Source: Tsukamurella sp. PLM1
Lineage (GTDB): Bacteria > Actinomycetota > Actinomycetes > Mycobacteriales > Mycobacteriaceae
Assembly: GCF_023168325.1 (NCBI RefSeq)
Contig: NZ_AP025688.1
Location: 4,216,001-4,280,000 of the forward strand
Length of the DNA stretch: 64,000 nucleotides
Direction: 5' to 3'
Both the position numbers and the translations under genes were made by a program. The notes under the pieces were generated by a model, which saw only the letters and a program-made list of their open reading frames with translations, had not been told where the DNA came from and ran no database searches. How positions within the stretch are numbered: the stretch's first letter is position 1; the number at the start of each line of letters is the position of its first letter. Below, piece after piece: positions 3,732 through 52,678 of this stretch.

Positions 3732-4426
3732 CAGCGCGCCGCCAGCTCCCGGTAGAAGCCGATCGCGTCGGCGGGCGCACCGTCGAACACGATCGCGCCG
3801 TCGTCCATCACCAGCACCCGGTCGAAATCGTCGAGCATCTCCAGGTGATGGGTCAGCAGGATCACCTGCTGCTCCAGCGCGGCGAGCCGGCGCCTCACGA
3901 GCAGCACGTTACGCAGGTCCAGCAGGGTGGTCGGCTCGTCGCACACCAGGATCTCCGGATCGGTCACCAGCACCGACGCGAACGCCAACATCTGCTTCTG
4001 CCCGGAACTCAGCAGCTGCGCCGGCGCATCCAGGTGATCGCCCAGGCCGAACTCGCCGAGGATCTCGGCCGCCCGACGGGTGATGTCGGCATCGTCGGGC
4101 CCGCCCCGCCTGCGGCGGCCCTGCGGGCGCAACGACAGCGCCACGTCCTCGGCGGGCGTGGGCATCACGATCTGCGCGGACGCGTCGGCGAACATGAACC
4201 CGACCCGCCGGCGCACCTCCGAACGTTTGCGCCGCACGTCCAGGCCCAGGGTTTCGACGGTGCCGTGCTCCGGCACGACGAGGCCGTTGAACGTGCGCGC
4301 GAGCGTCGACTTCCCCGAGCCGTTGGCGCCGATGATGCCGATGCGCCGCTCGGACAGCTCGGCCGAGATCCCGCGCAGCACGGGCCGGTCGTCGAACGAG
4401 TGGCTGACGCCGTCGAGGACGATCAT
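3731..4426 (-). CDS. bioM: ECF transporter ATPase, biotin (BioM)
   Basis: This is a 231-residue ABC ATPase. Walker A is GANGSGKST near residue 34, the signature region is LSSGQKQML, and Walker B is EILVCDEPTTLLD followed by the switch His in LLTHH. LSSGQ and the short length are typical of EcfA/CbiO/BioM ATPases. The start is ATG 4426 because it overlaps the bioY stop as ATGA. It powers biotin uptake together with BioN and BioY at the cytoplasmic membrane. The three genes are in one bioY-bioM-bioN operon. Confidence 0.88.
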   Translation of the reverse strand: MIVLDGVSHSFDDRPVLRGISAELSERRIGIIGANGSGKSTLARTFNGLVVPEHGTVETLGLDVRRKRSEVRRRVGFMFADASAQIVMPTPAEDVALSLRPQGRRRRGGPDDADITRRAAEILGEFGLGDHLDAPAQLLSSGQKQMLAFASVLVTDPEILVCDEPTTLLDLRNVLLVRRRLAALEQQVILLTHHLEMLDDFDRVLVMDDGAIVFDGAPADAIGFYRELAAR

Positions 4427-4989
4427 CTCTTGGTGATCGCCGGGTACGCCCGCGCCACCGTGACCACGACGAGCGAGGTGATGACGACCTTGATCAGGTC
4501 GCCGGGGACGAACTGGAACCCCAGCGTGAGCTTGGCGAACAGGCCCGAGCCCGTGCGCCAGCCGAGCCACGGCAGGCCCACCGCGTAGACGACCACCATC
4601 AGCCCGAGCACGTTCGCCAGGCCGATCTTCAGCGGGTTGGTGCGGCCCCACCTGTCCACGAGCCAGCCCGTCACCAGGGCGCCGAGGATGCCGCCGATGA
4701 GGAACCCTCCCGTGGGACCGGTGAGTACGGCGAGGCCGCCGCGCCCGCCGGCGCCGATCGGCAGGCCCACCACGATGAGCAGCACGTACAGCGCCACCGA
4801 CGCCCCGCCCCACGGGAAGCCGAGCAGCGACGCGGCCAGCATGAACCCCAGGGTCTGCAGGGTGATCGGCGCGATGCCGCTGATCGTGATCGTGGGCATC
4901 GCGAGCACGGCGGTGAGGGCGGTGAACACCGCGATCAGCGCGAGGTCACGAGGGTCGCGCGATAGGTGGAGGCCTTGAACACGGTTCAA
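4423..4989 (-). CDS. bioY: Biotin-specific S component BioY
   Basis: This hydrophobic protein of about 188 residues carries BioY features: an N-terminal helix DLALIAVFTALTAVL, then GIAPITLQTLGFMLAASLLG, LYVLLIVVGLPIGAGGRGG, and LTGPTGGFLIG. These segments bind biotin in the S component of ECF importers. The start is uncertain: TTG 4989 is the only near-upstream candidate in frame, but it lies inside the operator, so translation may start elsewhere. The stop overlaps the bioM start. Expression is probably repressed by the divergent TetR gene through the palindrome at 4975-4989. Confidence 0.85.
   Translation of the reverse strand: MNRVQGLHLSRDPRDLALIAVFTALTAVLAMPTITISGIAPITLQTLGFMLAASLLGFPWGGASVALYVLLIVVGLPIGAGGRGGLAVLTGPTGGFLIGGILGALVTGWLVDRWGRTNPLKIGLANVLGLMVVVYAVGLPWLGWRTGSGLFAKLTLGFQFVPGDLIKVVITSLVVVTVARAYPAITKR
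4975..4989. promoter_or_regulatory. BioQ-type operator between bioY and bioQ
   Basis: The sequence TTGAACACGGTTCAA is a perfect 6-bp inverted repeat around 3 bp. It matches the TGAAC-N3-GTTCA type site bound by the biotin regulator BioQ in corynebacteria and mycobacteria. It sits between divergent bioY and a TetR-family gene. On the plus strand its right half overlaps a candidate -35, with a -10-like TAGAGT at 5010-5015 and the regulator start at 5023. Confidence 0.7.
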
Positions 4990-5022
4990 GCCTGGTATCG
5001 GGGCTGGGCTAGAGTCAAATCC

Positions 5023-5598
5023 GTGGCCATCAACCGTTCGGACGTGCTGACCTCCGCGATCGCCGTCCTCGACGAGGCGGGCCTCCCGGACCTGACGATG
5101 CGCCGCGTGGCCGCGGACCTCGGGGTCGCGCCCGGCGCTCTGTACTGGCACGTCCCGAACAAGCAGTCGCTGCTCGCCGGCATCGCCGACACGATCCTCG
5201 CGGACCCGTCCCTCGCGGCGGCGGCGTCGAAGTCGCGGATGCGGTGGGACCGGCAGCTCACCGGGTACGCGCACGCCCTGCGGAAGGTGCTGCGCCGGCA
5301 CCGGGACGGCGCCGAGGTGGTGTCCGCGTCGCTGGCCTCGCAGCTGGGCACGAGCAACCTGCAGGCACAGATCGCCGACATCGCCGCGTCCGCGGGCGTG
5401 GCGGCGGCGGACGCGAACGCCGCGGCGCTCACGCTCACACACTTCGTCGTGGGGTTCACGTTCGAGGAGCAGACCCGCGAGGCGATGGCGCGCGCCGGCG
5501 CCGCGGCCGGCGAGCTCGACCGCATCGCCACCGACCGCGCCTTCGCGGGCGGGGTCGACCTCGTCGTCGATGGTCTGCGGACCCGCCTACCGGCGTAG
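5023..5598 (+). CDS. bioQ: TetR-family biotin regulator (BioQ-like)
   Basis: This is a 191-residue TetR repressor. The N-terminal helix-turn-helix reads TMRRVAADLGVAPGALYWHVPNK, near residues 26-48, followed by a helical ligand domain. It is divergent from bioYMN with a BioQ-type palindrome between them, so it most likely represses the biotin uptake operon and itself. GTG 5023 is chosen because TAGAGT (5010-5015) lies 7 nt upstream, giving a leaderless transcript. Starts further upstream would place the palindrome inside the gene. The name rests on context plus family, not on a sequence search. Confidence 0.75.
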   Translation: MAINRSDVLTSAIAVLDEAGLPDLTMRRVAADLGVAPGALYWHVPNKQSLLAGIADTILADPSLAAAASKSRMRWDRQLTGYAHALRKVLRRHRDGAEVVSASLASQLGTSNLQAQIADIAASAGVAAADANAAALTLTHFVVGFTFEEQTREAMARAGAAAGELDRIATDRAFAGGVDLVVDGLRTRLPA

Positions 5599-5649
5599 AG
5601 GTACAGCACCGTCCCGCTGGACGGCACCGTCGGACGAACCGAGCCGCGG

Positions 5650-39503: not shown

Positions 39504-40086
39504 TGATCGTGAGGAACCAGATCGTCGGCGGCACGGAGTGGTACTTGAGGAGCGTGTTGACGGCGGGTGAGCGGACCGGCGCGAAGCGGGTGAGGTTGGC
39601 GAGGGTCACGTACCAGAAGATCGGCCCCGTGGCGGCCCAGACGATCATGCAGTACGGGCAGAGCGCGTTGATGGTGTAGAGGCTCTGAGTGATGAGCCAG
39701 TGCACGAATCCCAGGGCTGCGGTGAGGCCGATCTGGAGGCAGAGCCAGAACCAGCGGCGGAACCGGGCTCCGGCGAGGAGTGCGGCGCCGATGGTGCTGA
39801 TGGCGGTGAACCCGGCGATGCCGATCAGGGAGTTGGGGAATCCGAGGACGGCGGCCTGGGGTGTGGTCATCACGGAGCCGCAGTTGAGCACGGGGTTCAG
39901 GCTGCACGAGGGGACGTAGGTCGTGTCGGCGGCGAGTTGCAGCTTCTCGATCGTCAGGACCAGAGAAGCCAGTGCTCCGGCGATGCCGCCGAGGAGCAGC
40001 AGCCAGGGCAGCAGCCGGGGAAACGTACCAGGCCCTTCGGGCGGTGCCTGTGTAGATGAGTCAGGCGAGGGCATCGTCGAGGGCAC
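39451..40086 (-). CDS. Vitamin K epoxide reductase (VKOR) family protein
   Basis: This 211-residue membrane protein has four to five helices. The conserved cysteines are Cys61 and Cys69 in VPSCSLNPVLNCGSV and the redox pair Cys143-Cys146 in INALCPYCM, with a Ser/Asn loop LGFPNSL. In actinobacteria VKOR re-oxidises DsbA using menaquinone, driving disulfide formation outside the membrane. The start overlaps the end of the dsbA-like gene by 26 nt, so they are one operon. Confidence 0.9.
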   Translation of the reverse strand: MPSTMPSPDSSTQAPPEGPGTFPRLLPWLLLLGGIAGALASLVLTIEKLQLAADTTYVPSCSLNPVLNCGSVMTTPQAAVLGFPNSLIGIAGFTAISTIGAALLAGARFRRWFWLCLQIGLTAALGFVHWLITQSLYTINALCPYCMIVWAATGPIFWYVTLANLTRFAPVRSPAVNTLLKYHSVPPTIWFLTIITLIVERFWWYWSSLLP

Positions 40087-45431: not shown

Positions 45432-46307
45432 TTACGCCGCTGGTGCGGCCGTGTTGATGATGGCCTCGTATTCGATCGGGGTCAAGCGGCCGAGGCCCGC
45501 TTGCCGGCGTCGGCGGTGGTAGGTCCTTTCGATCCAGGTGACGATCGCGATTCGTAGCTCCTCGCGGGTGGCCCAGCGTTGCCGGTCGAGGACGTTGCGT
45601 TGCAGCAGCGAGAAGAAGGATTCCATCGCAGCGTTGTCGCCAGCGGCGCCGACCCGGCCCATCGATCCGACCAGGCCGTGCTGGTTCAACGCGGACACGA
45701 ACTTCCGTGACCGGAACTGAGAACCCCTGTCCGAGTGAATAATACAACCGGATACGTCTGCGTCTCGGCGGGCGACCGCATTGTTGAGTGCATTCACCGC
45801 CAGCCGCGATTGCATGCGGGCGTCGATGCTGTAGCCGACGATCCGCCCGGAGCAGGCGTCCTTGATCGCGCACAGGTAGAGCTTGCCCTCGTCGGTCCAG
45901 TGCTCGGTGATGTCCGTGAGCCACAGCTCATCGAGTGCGTCGGCGGTGAAGACGCGTTCGACCAGGTCATCATGCACCGGCGGCCCCGGCTTCTTCCCAT
46001 TGCGGCCGCGCTTCTTACCGAAGCTCGACCACCAGCCGTTGGTGCAGCAGATCCGCCACGCCGTCCGTGCACTCATCCTCTGACCTGCAGCTTCAGCTTC
46101 ATCGGCCAGGAACCGGTACCCGAACTCCGGATCATCGTGGTGCGCGTCGAACAAGGCGTTGGCGCGCTCGGCCGCGACCCGATCGGCAGCGGTCACAGCG
46201 TCCTTGAGCCAGCGGTAGTAAGGCTGGCGAGCGAGCTTAAGAACCCGGCACGTCACCGTGACGGGGATCCCGTCCGCGGCGAGCTCTTTCACGAGCGGGT
46301 ACATCAT
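45432..46307 (-). CDS. IS3-family transposase OrfB
   Basis: This 291-residue protein has the N-terminal HTH_21 region (CRVLKLARQPYYRWL) and an rve integrase core with the DDE triad: Asp in ELWLTDITEH, Asp in IIHSDRGSQFRS, and Glu in GDNAAMESFFSLLQ. The start overlaps the orfA stop as ATGATG after GGGAAAA. It is normally made as an OrfAB fusion by ribosome slippage on the A-run. Confidence 0.93.
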   Translation of the reverse strand: MMYPLVKELAADGIPVTVTCRVLKLARQPYYRWLKDAVTAADRVAAERANALFDAHHDDPEFGYRFLADEAEAAGQRMSARTAWRICCTNGWWSSFGKKRGRNGKKPGPPVHDDLVERVFTADALDELWLTDITEHWTDEGKLYLCAIKDACSGRIVGYSIDARMQSRLAVNALNNAVARRDADVSGCIIHSDRGSQFRSRKFVSALNQHGLVGSMGRVGAAGDNAAMESFFSLLQRNVLDRQRWATREELRIAIVTWIERTYHRRRRQAGLGRLTPIEYEAIINTAAPAA

Positions 46308-46597
46308 TTTCCCGGCAGGTTCGCCTGCGACAGATACGCCGCAGCCCGCCGAAGAATCTCATTCTCCTGCTCCAGCAACCGGTTTCGTTTCCGCAGCTCG
46401 CGCAGTTCGGCGGACTCCGAGGCGGTCACCCCCGGCCGGTTACCGTCCTCAACATCAGCGGCACGCAGCCAGTTCTGCAGACAGGTCTCGCTGACACCGA
46501 AGTCGGCGGCGATCTGCTTGATCGTCACACCGTCCTCCCGACGACGCGCGGCACCGACGACATCGTCACGGAACTCACGGGGATAAGGCTTGGGCAT
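46304..46597 (-). CDS. IS3-family OrfA (helix-turn-helix)
   Basis: This 97-residue protein has the transposase_8 helix-turn-helix (TIKQIAADFGVSETCLQNWLRAAD) and a leucine-zipper tail (ELRELRKRNRLLEQENEILRRA). It binds the element ends and joins OrfB through a -1 shift at the AAAA before its stop. Confidence 0.92.
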   Translation of the reverse strand: MPKPYPREFRDDVVGAARRREDGVTIKQIAADFGVSETCLQNWLRAADVEDGNRPGVTASESAELRELRKRNRLLEQENEILRRAAAYLSQANLPGK

Positions 46598-47099: not shown

Positions 47100-47280
47100 C
47101 TACGTGCTTTCATCCGACTCCTCGCCAAAGTCAGACGAGGAAATACTCCAGAAATCGTCCCACCCCTCTGCCTGACAATCGGGAAGCAGTCCACGCTCTG
47201 CGAGGCAGACATAAAGAGGCTCAACGCCGACGGCGGTCATGTAGCCGAGTTCAGTTCTATCGTCATTGGTAACGAGCGAA
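47100..47280 (-). pseudogene. Orphaned 3' end of the trypsin-like protease gene
   Basis: This is the original end of the protease gene at 48910-49746, cut off by the IS1549-like element. It encodes the same last residues (ERGLLPDCQAEGWDDFWS...GEESDE) and ends ST-stop at 47100-47102. Because 173 bp were duplicated, the upstream gene kept all but its last two residues. Confidence 0.9.
47108..47280. repeat. 173-bp direct repeat, left copy (target duplication)
   Basis: It begins TTTCATCCGACTCC and ends GAGCGAA, and by eye is identical to 48915-49087. The copies directly abut the two ends of the IS1549-like element. Long and variable target duplications are a known habit of IS1549 and IS1634. Confidence 0.92.
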
Positions 47281-48914
47281 CCTGACTTAGGACACGATTC
47301 GGACATGCGCGTGCATGCACCGCGGTGAGCTGCGGTGATCGTGTCGTGTTGGTGCGGATCTGCGCACTAAATTGTGGGGTTCGTAGGCTGCTGGGGTGGC
47401 GTACGTGAGGACGGTGAAGACCGCGTCGGGGGCGACGGCGGTGCAGATCGTCTGGTCCTCGACCCGCGGGTCCCGCAAGATTGAACATCTGGGGTCCGCG
47501 CATGACGAGCAGCAGCTCGCCGCGCTGCGCGCTGCTGGTGAGGAGAAGATCGCAGCAGGTCAGACCATGTTGGATCTGGGTATCGGCGAGGCGCCGCAGG
47601 TGGGTCCGTTGCCGATCACCGCCTCGCGGATGGCCGTCCTGTGGGATGCCCTCGACGGCGCCTACCGGCGGCTCGGATTCGATACCGCGACCGGCGGCGA
47701 TGCTGTGTTCCGGGATCTGGTGCTCGCCCGGATCATCGAACCGACGAGCAAACTCGATTCGCTGCGGGTGCTCGATGAGGTCGGCCGCGTGGCGCAGTCC
47801 TATCGCACGATCACCCGGCGGCTGCCCGTGTATGCGAAACCGGCTTGGCGGCAAGCACTATCAGCCGCGTGCGCCGACCACGCCGGAATCGGGCCGGCGA
47901 CGTTGTTGCTCTACGATGTGACCACGCTCTACTTCGAAACCGACACCGAGGACGAGTTCCGCAGGCCCGGTTTCTCCAAGGAACGCCGCCTTGAGCCGCA
48001 GATCACTGTGGGCTTGTTGACCGATCCGTCGGGGTTCCCGTTGCAGATCGAAGCGTTCGAGGGCAATCGGGCGGAGACCACCACGATGCTGCCGACGATT
48101 GCCGCGTTCACCGCCGCCCACCACCTCGAATCGGGGCAGGTCACGGTGGTCGCTGACGCCGGGATGGTCTCCGCGGCGAACAAGCAGGCCCTCGAAGCCG
48201 CCGGGTTGCGGTTCATCATCGGCGAACGCCTCGGCGCGAGCGTGCCGTGGATCATCGACGACTGGCGCAAACGGCATCCCGGGCAGGAACCCGATGACCA
48301 ACTCGTGCTCATCCAGCCGATGCCCGCCGGCCCGACGGACAAACGCCGCGATCACGTTGTCTACTACCAGTACCGGGCCGCCCGGGCCCGCCGGACATTG
48401 AAGGGTATCGACGAGCAGATCATCAAGGCGCAGAGGGCTGTTGACGGAAAGATCCCGATCAAGCGGAACCGGTTCGTCACCATCAAGGACGCGAAGAAGA
48501 GCGTCAACCGTGACCTCGAAGCCCGCAACCGAGCCGTCGCGGGATGGAAGGCGTACGTCACCAACATCGACGCCCCGACACCGGAGTTCGTGATCGGCTC
48601 CTACCACCAGCTGTGGCGGATCGAGAAGAGCTTCCGGATGACCAAAAGTGATCTCGCCGCCCGCCCGATCTACCACCGCCTCCGCGAGAGCATCGACGCG
48701 CACCTGACCATCGTCTTCGCCGCCCTCGCGATCACCAGGCTCGTCGAGGGGCGGGCCGGATGGTCAATCAAGAAGTTCGTCACCACCGCCCGCCGCTACC
48801 GCACCATCGAAATCCAGGCAGGTCCACAGAGCATCACCGCCGCCGACCCCGTCCCCGCGGAACTACAGGACGCGATCAACGCAATCCTTGCGCACTAATT
48901 TGACCTAAGTCAGG
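47281..48914 (+). mobile_element. IS1549/IS1634-type insertion sequence
   Basis: The 1,634-bp element has ends CCTGACTTAGG (47281-47291) and CCTAAGTCAGG (48904-48914), an 11-bp inverted repeat that is partly extended. It carries one transposase gene. It is flanked by a 173-bp direct repeat. It inserted into the end of a protease gene, and its right end supplies the new stop codon of that gene. Confidence 0.92.
47396..48898 (+). CDS. IS1634-family transposase
   Basis: This 500-residue transposase has an RNase H-type DDE core: Asp in LLLYDVTTLYFETD, Asp in VTVVADAGMVS, and Glu in LWRIEKSFRMTKSDLAARPIYHR. The region HLTIVFAALAITRLVE near the end is typical of IS1634/IS1549 members. GTG 47396 is used as the start; GTG 47405 is possible. 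The gene is intact, so the element may still move. Confidence 0.92.
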   Translation: MAYVRTVKTASGATAVQIVWSSTRGSRKIEHLGSAHDEQQLAALRAAGEEKIAAGQTMLDLGIGEAPQVGPLPITASRMAVLWDALDGAYRRLGFDTATGGDAVFRDLVLARIIEPTSKLDSLRVLDEVGRVAQSYRTITRRLPVYAKPAWRQALSAACADHAGIGPATLLLYDVTTLYFETDTEDEFRRPGFSKERRLEPQITVGLLTDPSGFPLQIEAFEGNRAETTTMLPTIAAFTAAHHLESGQVTVVADAGMVSAANKQALEAAGLRFIIGERLGASVPWIIDDWRKRHPGQEPDDQLVLIQPMPAGPTDKRRDHVVYYQYRAARARRTLKGIDEQIIKAQRAVDGKIPIKRNRFVTIKDAKKSVNRDLEARNRAVAGWKAYVTNIDAPTPEFVIGSYHQLWRIEKSFRMTKSDLAARPIYHRLRESIDAHLTIVFAALAITRLVEGRAGWSIKKFVTTARRYRTIEIQAGPQSITAADPVPAELQDAINAILAH

Positions 48915-49746
48915 TTTCATCCGACTCCTCGCCAAAGTCAGACGAGGAAATACTCCAGAAATCGTCCCACCCCTCTGCCTGACAATCGGGAAGCAGTCCA
49001 CGCTCTGCGAGGCAGACATAAAGAGGCTCAACGCCGACGGCGGTCATGTAGCCGAGTTCAGTTCTATCGTCATTGGTAACGAGCGAACTCGCTACCATTC
49101 CGAGCGCATATCCATACTCACTAAGCACCGGCCCACCACTGAAGCCACCACGCGCCATTTCCGAAAGCACAAAATGTACGTGCGGTGCATCATACCGATC
49201 GATCATCGCATTCACCTCGGCGCGGGTGCCAACAAGGTTTGGCCGCATGGCTTTTGGAATCCGTGGATACCCCAGCACGATTGCCTCAGTTAATACGAAG
49301 TCACTCTCACCCAGCCAATCGTCCAGATGGCCACCTAGGCGGACCACAGGTGTCATCGGATCGATATTCCCGACCTGAAAGACTGCCACATCGACTGAAT
49401 CGTCGGAATGAAAATAGGGGCCGCGTGTCAAGTTCAAGACTCTGTTGTGCACGGCGTGCACAGGCCGTTTCACGCCATCCTTGACAACTACTGTCGACGA
49501 GGCGCCGCCGTCCTCGATGGGTACATAAGAACGCTCCGTCGACCCAACCTCGAGGATGGTCTTATCTTCAATGACGTGGCGAGCAGTAACAAATACTCCT
49601 TCGCCCACGTGGAACCCGGATCCGACATGGACATCGCCAGCTTTGTCCTCAACTTCGATGTATATCAGCGCGCATCCGTACTGCACGAACGCCGCTCTTG
49701 CTGCACCCGTATCCAAGAGCGGACCTCCCGCCAGCCAATGCGACAC
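48910..49746 (-). CDS. Trypsin-like serine protease, cytoplasmic
   Basis: This 278-residue protein has a chymotrypsin-fold triad: His57 in VFVTARHVIED, Asp119 in SVDVAVFQV and Ser203 in ARGGFSGGPVL. No signal peptide is seen, so it likely acts inside the cell, as do trypsin-like proteases in bacterial defence or conflict systems. Its coding sequence is less GC-rich than the core genes. The last codon and stop (ACC-TGA) come from the inserted IS end; the original ended in ST. The start at 49746 is by longest fit. Confidence 0.8.
   Translation of the reverse strand: MSHWLAGGPLLDTGAARAAFVQYGCALIYIEVEDKAGDVHVGSGFHVGEGVFVTARHVIEDKTILEVGSTERSYVPIEDGGASSTVVVKDGVKRPVHAVHNRVLNLTRGPYFHSDDSVDVAVFQVGNIDPMTPVVRLGGHLDDWLGESDFVLTEAIVLGYPRIPKAMRPNLVGTRAEVNAMIDRYDAPHVHFVLSEMARGGFSGGPVLSEYGYALGMVASSLVTNDDRTELGYMTAVGVEPLYVCLAERGLLPDCQAEGWDDFWSISSSDFGEESDET
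48915..49087. repeat. 173-bp direct repeat, right copy (target duplication)
   Basis: Same sequence and orientation as 47108-47280. This copy lies inside the protease gene and preserves its coding end. Confidence 0.92.
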
Positions 49747-50067: not shown

Positions 50068-50448
50068 CTAGCCGCGGCGCCCGAGGGCGACCGTCAGATC
50101 CTCGATCGCGGTCGTCGTGCGCGCAGTCGTCGACACACGAACCGAGTCACTCTGGTCAAGCGCCGACACGAATCGCTTAGACGACTTCTCGATCGCTTCC
50201 GCGACCTCCAGCATCGCCGAACGAACACCATTGATCCCACTCATAAGGGCATCCAGCTGGTCATCAGTCATTTCCCCCTCACCTCCTTCCTTCATGATCG
50301 AGTTGAGCAAACTTAGCGGTCCCAAGACCGCGACCGATCTTCCGTTTCTCAGAATCTCGACGACCATGCCGTCGATCGCCATGGCCAAGTATTCGCTCGG
50401 GCGGCGATTTAGATCCGTTGCGGTCGCTGTGATCTTCTCGGGAGGCAC
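50068..50448 (-). CDS. Phd/YefM-like antitoxin-type protein, no toxin beside it
   Basis: This 126-residue protein starts with ITATATDLNRRPSEYLAMAIDGMVVEILRNGRSVAVLGP, the layout of a Phd/YefM antitoxin (dimer N-terminus with a V-x-x-LxNGxxVAVL beta hairpin). The C-terminal half is helical and acidic (MTDDQLDALMSGING, EVAEAIEKSSKRF). GTG 50448 is preferred because TACAGT lies 7 nt upstream. No toxin gene is adjacent on either side. A palindrome upstream suggests self-repression. The family call is tentative. Confidence 0.5.
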   Translation of the reverse strand: MPPEKITATATDLNRRPSEYLAMAIDGMVVEILRNGRSVAVLGPLSLLNSIMKEGGEGEMTDDQLDALMSGINGVRSAMLEVAEAIEKSSKRFVSALDQSDSVRVSTTARTTTAIEDLTVALGRRG

Positions 50449-50459
50449 AGTACACACTG

Positions 50460-50476
50460 TAGTTAGTAGGTAACTA
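50460..50476. promoter_or_regulatory. Palindrome upstream of the Phd-like gene
   Basis: TAGTTA and TAACTA arms flank GTAGG, 12 nt upstream of the GTG start on the minus strand. Further AACTA/CTAGT copies follow up to about 50490. This is the usual place for antitoxin autoregulation. Confidence 0.45.
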
Positions 50477-51018
50477 GAATGCAACTACTAGTATCTACTT
50501 CGCCTGGATGCCTTCGGGACACCGCGGCTCCATACCCGCAAGGCTCGAATCTGAGTTCGATGCGCAGTCCCGGTTCGTCTCCGATGTCTCCCGCGGCTGC
50601 GCACCCCGCTGACGGCGACGCGACTCATGCACAGGCGTAGCGCAGGTCCTGGAACATCAGTCGCGCCAAACCCAACCCTCAGGTTCTGCATCCTTAGCAC
50701 GAACCGCGCAGATCATGTTGAGCATTTCCTCACGCCTGAGGCGCGAACTCTGACGGCCACCGGGACGTGGTATTCGGATCTGCCGACGTCTGACGCGCGC
50801 CGTGCACGACGTTACCCTGATCGAAGCGGTGCTGGCGCATGTCGCCGAGCGGATGCCAAGAAAACGTGAGTATAGGCAGCGACTGGCTCGCTGGTGCTCG
50901 GTTCCGCACGCATCAGCAGATCTGAAGCGGAACCCGCGAAATGGGCGCTCAACCGCGAACGAGTCGAACCGTTGTAGTCTGTGAAATTCACTGATGATCG
51001 AGTCGAGGTAAACGTTCG
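50477..51018. other. Gene-free stretch upstream of the ShosTA-like pair
   Basis: No protein with recognisable features is seen in either strand. The promoter of the phosphoribosyltransferase gene should lie in the last 60 bp (a TGTAGTCTGTGAAAT region near 50973) and a GAGGT site precedes ATG 51019. Confidence 0.35.
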
Positions 51019-51825
51019 ATGTACTTGTCCGAGTTCACGCCGGCCCGCCCATCCCGGGTCGAGAATTCCCTGCGCGTGAGACCGGCCAGCGGGGGCGCCG
51101 AGTGGCGGCGCCTGTACTTGAAGACCGCCGATCTGCCGCTGGCTCACATCGCTGCGTGCTTCGGCTCGGGGTACCGTCTCGTCGAGGTTCCGGCGTCGAG
51201 AGCCGAGTTCAACAGATGCCTGGAGTTCCCGGGAGCGCTTCCGGACGGCGTCGGAGAGCTGGTCTCGCTGCTGGGGTCAGGACTGTGCCTACCCGCCCCC
51301 GCGCCGTTCGACCTCGTCCTCGCCCTTGACCGGTACAAGACGGTCGACGACGAACTGCCGCCGTCCCAGTGGAAGAACACCGACGTGGGCGAACTGGTCT
51401 ACAGGGCGAAGTACTATGTGTTTTCCCCAGGAGCGCAGAGACGGGCGCGGAAAGCCCTCGCGGCACGGCTGGCCGACGCGATCGGGAAGCATCCGGCGTA
51501 CCGGGATGCGCCATACCTATTGAGCGTGCCGGGTTCGGCCGGCGACGGCAACAGCACCGGTGAGTTGCTGGCGCGCTTGGTGGCTGAGTCGACCAGCAAA
51601 CAGTTGATCGAGACGATCGGTCCTGCTCGCGCTCAGCGTAAGGCGGACCCGAGTCTCGATGTATCTGGCATGTTTTCCTCTCCTACGATGCTGGACGGAG
51701 CCTGCGTGATCATCGACGACGTTTGGCACACCGGTGGGACCTGCACCGAAGTGGCCCATGTTGCCAAGCGTGCGGGGGCTGACGCAGTCTATGGTCTCGT
51801 TGGCGCGAGAACGATGAGGAACTGA
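51019..51825 (+). CDS. ShosT-like phosphoribosyltransferase-domain toxin candidate
   Basis: This is a 268-residue protein. The C-terminal third is a type I phosphoribosyltransferase fold with the PRPP loop VIIDDVWHTGGT at 230-241 (Asp233-Asp234), followed by EVAHVAKRAGADAVYGL. The N-terminal 130 residues are unknown. It is followed 4 nt later by a DprA-like gene. That pair is the architecture of ShosTA, a toxin-antitoxin anti-phage system with a PRTase toxin (ShosT) and DprA-like antitoxin (ShosA). ATG 51019 has GAGGT 8 nt upstream. Other PRTase-DprA pairs, such as competence comF-like neighbours, are less likely because no nuclease or competence gene is near. Confidence 0.72.
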   Translation: MYLSEFTPARPSRVENSLRVRPASGGAEWRRLYLKTADLPLAHIAACFGSGYRLVEVPASRAEFNRCLEFPGALPDGVGELVSLLGSGLCLPAPAPFDLVLALDRYKTVDDELPPSQWKNTDVGELVYRAKYYVFSPGAQRRARKALAARLADAIGKHPAYRDAPYLLSVPGSAGDGNSTGELLARLVAESTSKQLIETIGPARAQRKADPSLDVSGMFSSPTMLDGACVIIDDVWHTGGTCTEVAHVAKRAGADAVYGLVGARTMRN

Positions 51826-51829
51826 ACGG

Positions 51830-52678
51830 ATGTCTGCCGAGGGAACGCTCAGGGCGCTGGTCGCCTTCGAGGTGTTCCGCACGCCCGCGAAGGTCACCCG
51901 AGCTCTAGCAGACCCGGACCCGGAGCCTCTGCGGGATGCCTGGCGCGGGCTGTCCGACGAGGCTCGGTCCTCGTTGGCCCGGCAAGTCGACGACCTCCAG
52001 TCCCGAGGCATCGATACGATCAACGCTGGCGATGGCGCGTTCCCGGAGTCCTTGGTGGTCGGCAGCAGACCGGTCGTTCCGACCCTATTTTGCAAGGGCG
52101 ACTTGGCGTTGCTCACCGCAGACGGCGCGGGGATGTGCGGATCGCGGAAGGTGAGTCCGCTCGGGCTCAAGGCCGCGCGCGCGTGCGGCGAAGAGGTCAG
52201 CGATCGAGGACTGACGGTGGTGTCTGGGTACGCGAAGGGCGTCGACACCGCGACCCACCTCGCCGCGCTGGATCGGGGCGGCCGGACCGTCATCGTCCTG
52301 GCCGAGGGGATCGACGCCTTCCGCGTCAAGCGTGAGTTCAAGGAGACCTTCGATCCGAGCCGAGTGCTGGTCGTTTCCCAATTCCGCCCCGACCAACCGT
52401 GGGCGGCGTACGGGGCGATGGCTCGCAATCACGTGATCTTCGGCCTTGGCAAAGCCCTGGTGGTAATCGAGGCCGGCGAAAAGGGTGGCACGCTCGCTGC
52501 CGGACGAGACGCGCTCAAGCGAGGCAGGCCGGTCTTCGCACTCAACTTCGGGGAGGAGACGCCCGTAGGGAACCGCATCCTCATCGAGGCGGGTGCTCAG
52601 CCTGTGACCTCGAGAACAGAGCTCGGCGTCGCTCTGGATCGTTTGAAGGGCCAGCCCCGGCAAGGGACGTTGCTCTGA
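51830..52678 (+). CDS. ShosA-like DprA/Smf-family antitoxin candidate
   Basis: This 282-residue Rossmann-fold protein has DprA motifs: GSRKVSPLG at 104-112, GLTVVSGYAKGVDTATHLAAL at 128-147, and a later GEKGGTLAAGRDALKRGRPVFAL. An N-terminal helical region of about 90 residues precedes it, and it lacks the C-terminal winged helix (DML1) of genuine DprA. True DprA loads RecA in transformation; ShosA homologues neutralise ShosT. The 4-nt spacing to the PRTase gene supports a functional pair. Confidence 0.75.
   Translation: MSAEGTLRALVAFEVFRTPAKVTRALADPDPEPLRDAWRGLSDEARSSLARQVDDLQSRGIDTINAGDGAFPESLVVGSRPVVPTLFCKGDLALLTADGAGMCGSRKVSPLGLKAARACGEEVSDRGLTVVSGYAKGVDTATHLAALDRGGRTVIVLAEGIDAFRVKREFKETFDPSRVLVVSQFRPDQPWAAYGAMARNHVIFGLGKALVVIEAGEKGGTLAAGRDALKRGRPVFALNFGEETPVGNRILIEAGAQPVTSRTELGVALDRLKGQPRQGTLL

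Follow-up and report, generated by a model that had tools for sequence, protein, structure and literature searches.

Long, variable target duplications of an IS1634-family insertion sequence suggest that each end reads its own 5-bp target site

The locus described here lies in a stretch of 64,000 nucleotides from Tsukamurella sp. PLM1 (contig NZ_AP025688.1, positions 4,216,001 to 4,280,000), which we call the window and in which an insertion sequence (IS) of the IS1634 family, flanked by a long direct repeat, interrupts the end of a trypsin-like protease gene. The IS spans 1,634 bp on the plus strand (47281-48914) and holds a single open reading frame (ORF), which encodes a DDE transposase of 500 residues (47396-48898, plus strand) whose D174, D254, and E410 are invariant among 46 aligned proteins. 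It opens with the left terminal inverted repeat CCTGACTTAGGACA (47281-47294, plus strand) and closes with the right one, CCTGACTTAGGTCA when read inward (48901-48914, minus strand); the inversion is imperfect, 13 of the first 14 bases agreeing between the two ends. The transposase scored 367.2 bits against the NCBIfam model of the IS1634 family (NF033559, cut-off 100) and less than 28 bits against each of the six other family models listed, under their cut-offs, and it had no sequence match among solved structures.

In the relevant passage of a 2008 review (PMC2266710), the family is defined by a DDE transposase with a YREK motif that mostly lacks the R, a length of 1.5-2 kb, ends that start with C and have YT at positions 7-8, and, in typical members, AT-rich duplications of 5-6 bp. 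The element in the window has the expected size and ends (1,634 bp, CCTGACTT), and its Y403 is invariant in the 46 aligned proteins, with L406 at the R position, as in most IS1634 members. It does not show the short AT-rich duplication, its two identical copies in this genome being flanked by 173 and 133 bp, and because the review names IS1549 and IS1634 as exceptions, we do not hold this against membership; long repeats of variable length are what the IS1549-type group displays. The preliminary description of this DNA had likewise assigned the 1,634-bp element to the IS1549/IS1634 kind, and both the NF033559 score and the repeats bear this out.

The two copies of the repeat (47108-47280 on the left and 48915-49087 on the right) are exactly identical, as had been proposed. 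The match in fact extends to 174 nucleotides (47108-47281 and 48915-49088), but base 174 is the C that opens the IS, and we therefore count the duplication as 173 bp. No further direct repeat of at least 30 nucleotides was found between positions 40000 and 56000 of the window. A chance origin of the 173-bp repeat is excluded, and it is almost certainly the target duplication produced by insertion of this IS1634-family element. The protease gene (Trypsin_2, 278 amino acids, 48910-49746, minus strand) keeps the right copy as part of its reading frame, while the left copy contains its original 3' end, with the natural TAG just beyond (47100-47102). Translation of the detached copy ends in GEESDEST; that of the attached copy ends in GEESDET, followed by a TGA (48910-48912) that is derived from the IS end. 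The preliminary description was right that the duplication reaches the last codons and that the IS supplies the stop; the final Ser-Thr has been swapped for a lone Thr, which shortens the protein by one residue, and the remaining frame is intact.

A second copy of the IS in the same genome (G000:C1:1582309-1583942; positions 4001-5634 of our locus L133) is 100% identical to the first and is flanked by an exact repeat of 133 bp. Since identical copies carry different exact repeats, these duplications arise by insertion. This second copy splits an MzaC-like gene that adjoins a cytosine methylase gene and an MzaB-like gene, and here the gene was not spared.

We surveyed related elements in two sets. 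Discovery searches covered the host family (301 genomes, 50 with a match), the phylum (396, 62), and, by protein, the order (397, 22), and selected places from these searches plus 10 loci from named genomes formed the discovery set. Held-out searches covered another order (396 genomes, 34 with a match) and one genus (59, 11), from which selected places were again taken; this set was assembled after the T...A motif described below had been noticed. The regions taken were part of the listed matches (60, 40, and 20, then 60, 58 of them used as held-out loci), and the survey left out the matches of two other genus searches as well as 31 plasmid records. Ends were assigned by the inverted-repeat motif, and repeat length was read outward from them. 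Eighteen discovery loci lacked a transposase ORF of at least 330 amino acids; in this set, 118 transposase ORFs gave 79 with motif-called ends, of which 62 were kept (score >600), and the 17 low-scoring rows set aside comprised three long repeats (45, 336, and 169 bp), four of 5 bp, three of 4 bp, and seven with none. The held-out set went from 59 transposase ORFs to 48 with ends and 46 kept under a score limit of 500, not 600, which lets in one locus, L299 (score 562, 28 bp). Among distant NF033559 members, four loci (L119-L122) had 4-bp repeats that were all CTAG, a different target habit; two of them, L119 and L120, share the same flanks as far as these were printed and may be one duplicated site.

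The 108 copies delimited in this way comprised 56 with long repeats, 24 with repeats of 5-6 bp, one with 11 bp, and 27 with none, four of these last standing at contig ends, so that a repeat would go unseen. Long repeats ranged from 20 to 629 bp (median, 87.5 bp), and 54 of the 56 were exact. Several genomes contained both modes around the same element: copies that are 100% identical had 72 and 5 bp in G253 and 341, 75, and 11 bp in G1114, and copies 99.94% identical had 72 and 5 bp in G1035. The lengths showed no helical phasing at seven periods between 10.0 and 11.0 bp (Rayleigh p = 0.12-0.63) and no clustering, pairs within 0, 1, or 2 bp being as frequent as expected; on these pair counts, we attribute an apparent cluster at 172-174 bp to chance.

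The pentamer duplicated by copies of the 5-6 bp class resembles TCNGA, with C at +2 in 45/48 sites and G at +4 in 44/48. Read outward from the IS ends, long-class sites have T at +1 in 65/112 and A at +5 in 56/112, against a background of about 19%. In the held-out long sites, T at +1 and A at +5 each recur in 24/50 (p = 2.4e-6 each), and G is found at -1 in 28/49 (p = 1.6e-4). T and A occur jointly at the true offset in 39/112 sites, compared with a mean rate of 0.030 and a maximum of 0.091 at 70 other offsets; in the clade to which the window's transposase belongs, the joint count is 12/30 (maximum at other offsets, 0.133). The T...A frame of long-mode ends is the same frame that both ends share in 5-bp mode. 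Because A at +5 is not a duplication edge in long mode, this pattern suggests that a full 5-bp site is read separately at each long-mode end. In the window, the pentamer TTTCA next to the right IS end (48915-48919, plus strand) fits T...A, and the one next to the left end (TTCGC read outward, 47276-47280, minus strand) fits at T1 and not at position 5.

The mode of duplication also follows the transposase tree. In a tree of 82 transposases, the window's clade had 15 long repeats (23-581 bp), no short ones, and five copies with none, two other clades together had 14 short, no long, and four with none, and the rest, which are mixed, had 41 long, 10 short, one of 11 bp, and 18 with none. The window's clade differs from the two short-only clades with a Fisher p of 1.3e-8, though related copies are not independent. 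L299 lies outside the tree; being 99.7% identical to L298, it was assigned to the window's clade. The tree is partly unsure, with some long branches that include L126 of the window's clade. One host, G1397, carries repeats of 90, 5, and 5 bp, from one copy of the long-only clade and one of each 5-bp-only clade; thus, host identity is not sufficient to determine the mode. Most likely, the mode is largely determined by the transposase.

These observations can be accommodated if the transposase favors a symmetrical 5-bp target site. In short mode, both IS ends would join the two edges of one pentamer, giving a 5-bp duplication. In long mode, the presumed joining chemistry would act in one step at separate pentamers, on opposite strands and tens to hundreds of base pairs apart, and host synthesis through the intervening stretch would then duplicate it whole. 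In the window, the two sites would be TTTCA and GCGAA, 173 bp edge to edge. We regard this account as a whole, in which the IS ends are joined at separate 5-bp targets whose spacing sets the length, as probable. As to the more general proposition, that a transposase with a 5-bp preference can let its ends capture separate sites and that the choice of one or two sites is inherited with it, we consider the chances about even.

Capture of two sites would also be expected to yield insertions with deletions, and some of the 27 repeat-less copies could be such. As a group, these copies retain the target motif (T1 in 27/50 and A5 in 27/50 sites), as expected for deletion products of a two-site or a two-step reaction, or for recombination. 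Few of them are explained by recombination among the sampled copies. The clear case is L293/L294 (G1422:C30, ~7.9-29.9 kb), identical direct copies neither of which has its own repeat, while 352 bp recur in the left flank of one copy and the right flank of its partner; the pair resembles a composite transposon of ~22 kb flanked by a long target duplication. Another locus, L083, is a tangled tandem.

Among the alternatives, it is hardly credible that the repeat is older than the IS and represents a pre-existing tandem duplication: the repeats directly adjoin the IS ends and differ between two identical copies, the pattern recurs at 56 sites (54 exact), and the segment duplicated at the 133-bp copy is single in both relatives examined. 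What speaks for it is that no empty site was obtained for the window locus, where the protease matched in 2/61 genomes, one of them its own and the other a weak hit, and where its plasmid relatives (10 of the 17 listed) match only as far as residue 256 of 278 and do not reach the junction. Also very improbable is a single, very long coordinated stagger at one site with no second recognition site; it would yield exact repeats of variable length, yet it leaves both the A at +5 from each end and the 5-bp mode of identical copies unexplained, and the recurrence of the +5 A among held-out sites disfavors it. We find it rather doubtful that a transposase held by the replication clamp joins the IS ends to separated parental strands at a fork, with the spacing set by single-stranded gaps. 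The broad lengths (20-629 bp, median 87.5) without helical phasing would suit this idea, and an Acidiphilium IS1634-family transposase binds the beta clamp, according to an excerpt of PMC4549789; however, the T...A frame at each end suits duplex targets more than single strands, and inspection by eye, rather than by a scan, showed no conserved clamp motif in the C-terminal consensus of our alignment (A1).

The main rival, which we nonetheless consider unlikely, is an origin in two steps between sister chromosomes, wherein a 5-bp insertion at a first pentamer is followed by a local replicative hop to a second one, or by unequal recombination with another insertion close by at such a second pentamer on the sister chromosome, one product having a long repeat around the IS and the other a deletion. 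Under it, both ends should show the same pentamer, and repeat-less copies that bear the motif, such as those we found, are likewise expected. On the other hand, it requires two close events, yet long repeats outnumber those of 5-6 bp by 56 to 24. A fresh IS1549 insertion in lsr2, in one phage-resistant Mycobacterium smegmatis mutant, has a 13-bp duplication in the part of PMC10066036 that describes it, which also counts against two steps, as do the two 5-bp-only clades without a long repeat (14/14 repeats short, four further copies with none).

Several points weigh against capture of two sites in one step. The motif alone cannot tell such a reaction from two steps between sister chromosomes. 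T...A is a preference, with T1 or A5 in 82/112 long-mode sites and neither in 30; its joint rate falls from 26/62 in the discovery set to 13/50 in the held-out set, and the window's own left site lacks A5. Symmetry of the long-mode site is incomplete: no C at +6 mirrors the G at -1 (62/111), and the C2 and G4 favored by short-mode sites are weakly preferred here (C 46/112, G 34/112). The p-values assume independent sites and the base composition of the flanks, and clade counts are not independent, copies of one element being related; in addition, there is less certainty about where L260 and L261 end, their element lengths being 1833 and 1784. Finally, a DNA-level empty site was found for none of the long insertions tried, namely the window, the 133-bp copy, whose left flank matched in its own genome alone (1/16), and the 90-bp copy of G1397. 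The left flank of this last copy had some match in 57/59 genomes (its own included, many weak), and among 11 loci compared, the left flank was present in 11/11 and the right flank gave only short matches, of 28-38 nucleotides in three.

If targets are captured as two sites, the damage done to a gene would depend on where the sites fall: a long duplication restores the gene end if one site lies past it, as in the window, and there is no restoration when both fall within the gene, as at the mzaC copy. Elsewhere in the window, an IS3-family element lies ~0.5 kb to the left of the left repeat (45432-46597; transposase ORF 45432-46307, 247 bits). On the other side of the insertion, an ORF at 50068-50484 resembles Phd/YefM antitoxins (25.4 bits, under the Pfam cut-off of 29.8), and a DprA-like gene with a PsyrA match (1.5e-49) stands beside a weak PsyrT match (1.6e-4) at 51019-52678, possibly a PsyrTA-type system.

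The target stagger of DDE transposons is usually fixed, and in the account we favor, duplication length would instead be the distance between two chosen sites. LINE-type retrotransposons also make variable target duplications, via separately placed first- and second-strand cuts; this is an analogy only, their enzymes and pathway being unrelated to those of the present IS. For IS1549, the title of a 1998 paper reportedly refers to its long direct repeats. According to the 2008 review, in the passage on this family, IS1549 of M. smegmatis is an IS1634-family element with long, variable duplications, as the preliminary description had also stated, those of IS1549 and IS1634 together span 8-514 bp, and no mechanistic model was yet available for them (PMC2266710). 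The listings and passages of openly licensed papers that we consulted gave no later model, and the primary papers of 1998 and 1999 may contain target-site data. The present IS shares its long, variable duplications with IS1549 and with the family namesake, IS1634, from the distant host Mycoplasma mycoides, a likeness that rests on published descriptions rather than sequence. Typical IS1634-family members share with it the DDE transposase, a YREK motif without R in most, the length of 1.5-2 kb, and the C/YT ends, but differ in their 5-6 bp duplications; a published excerpt on ISGka5, for example, gives 6 bp (PMC8024623). Given the earlier descriptions of long, variable duplications in IS1549 and IS1634, the element is in itself an ordinary one of a known type; what our survey adds is the two-site motif and the clade pattern, and it makes the question of duplication length testable, with two-site capture as the hypothesis and with related long-only and 5-bp-only clades open to direct comparison.
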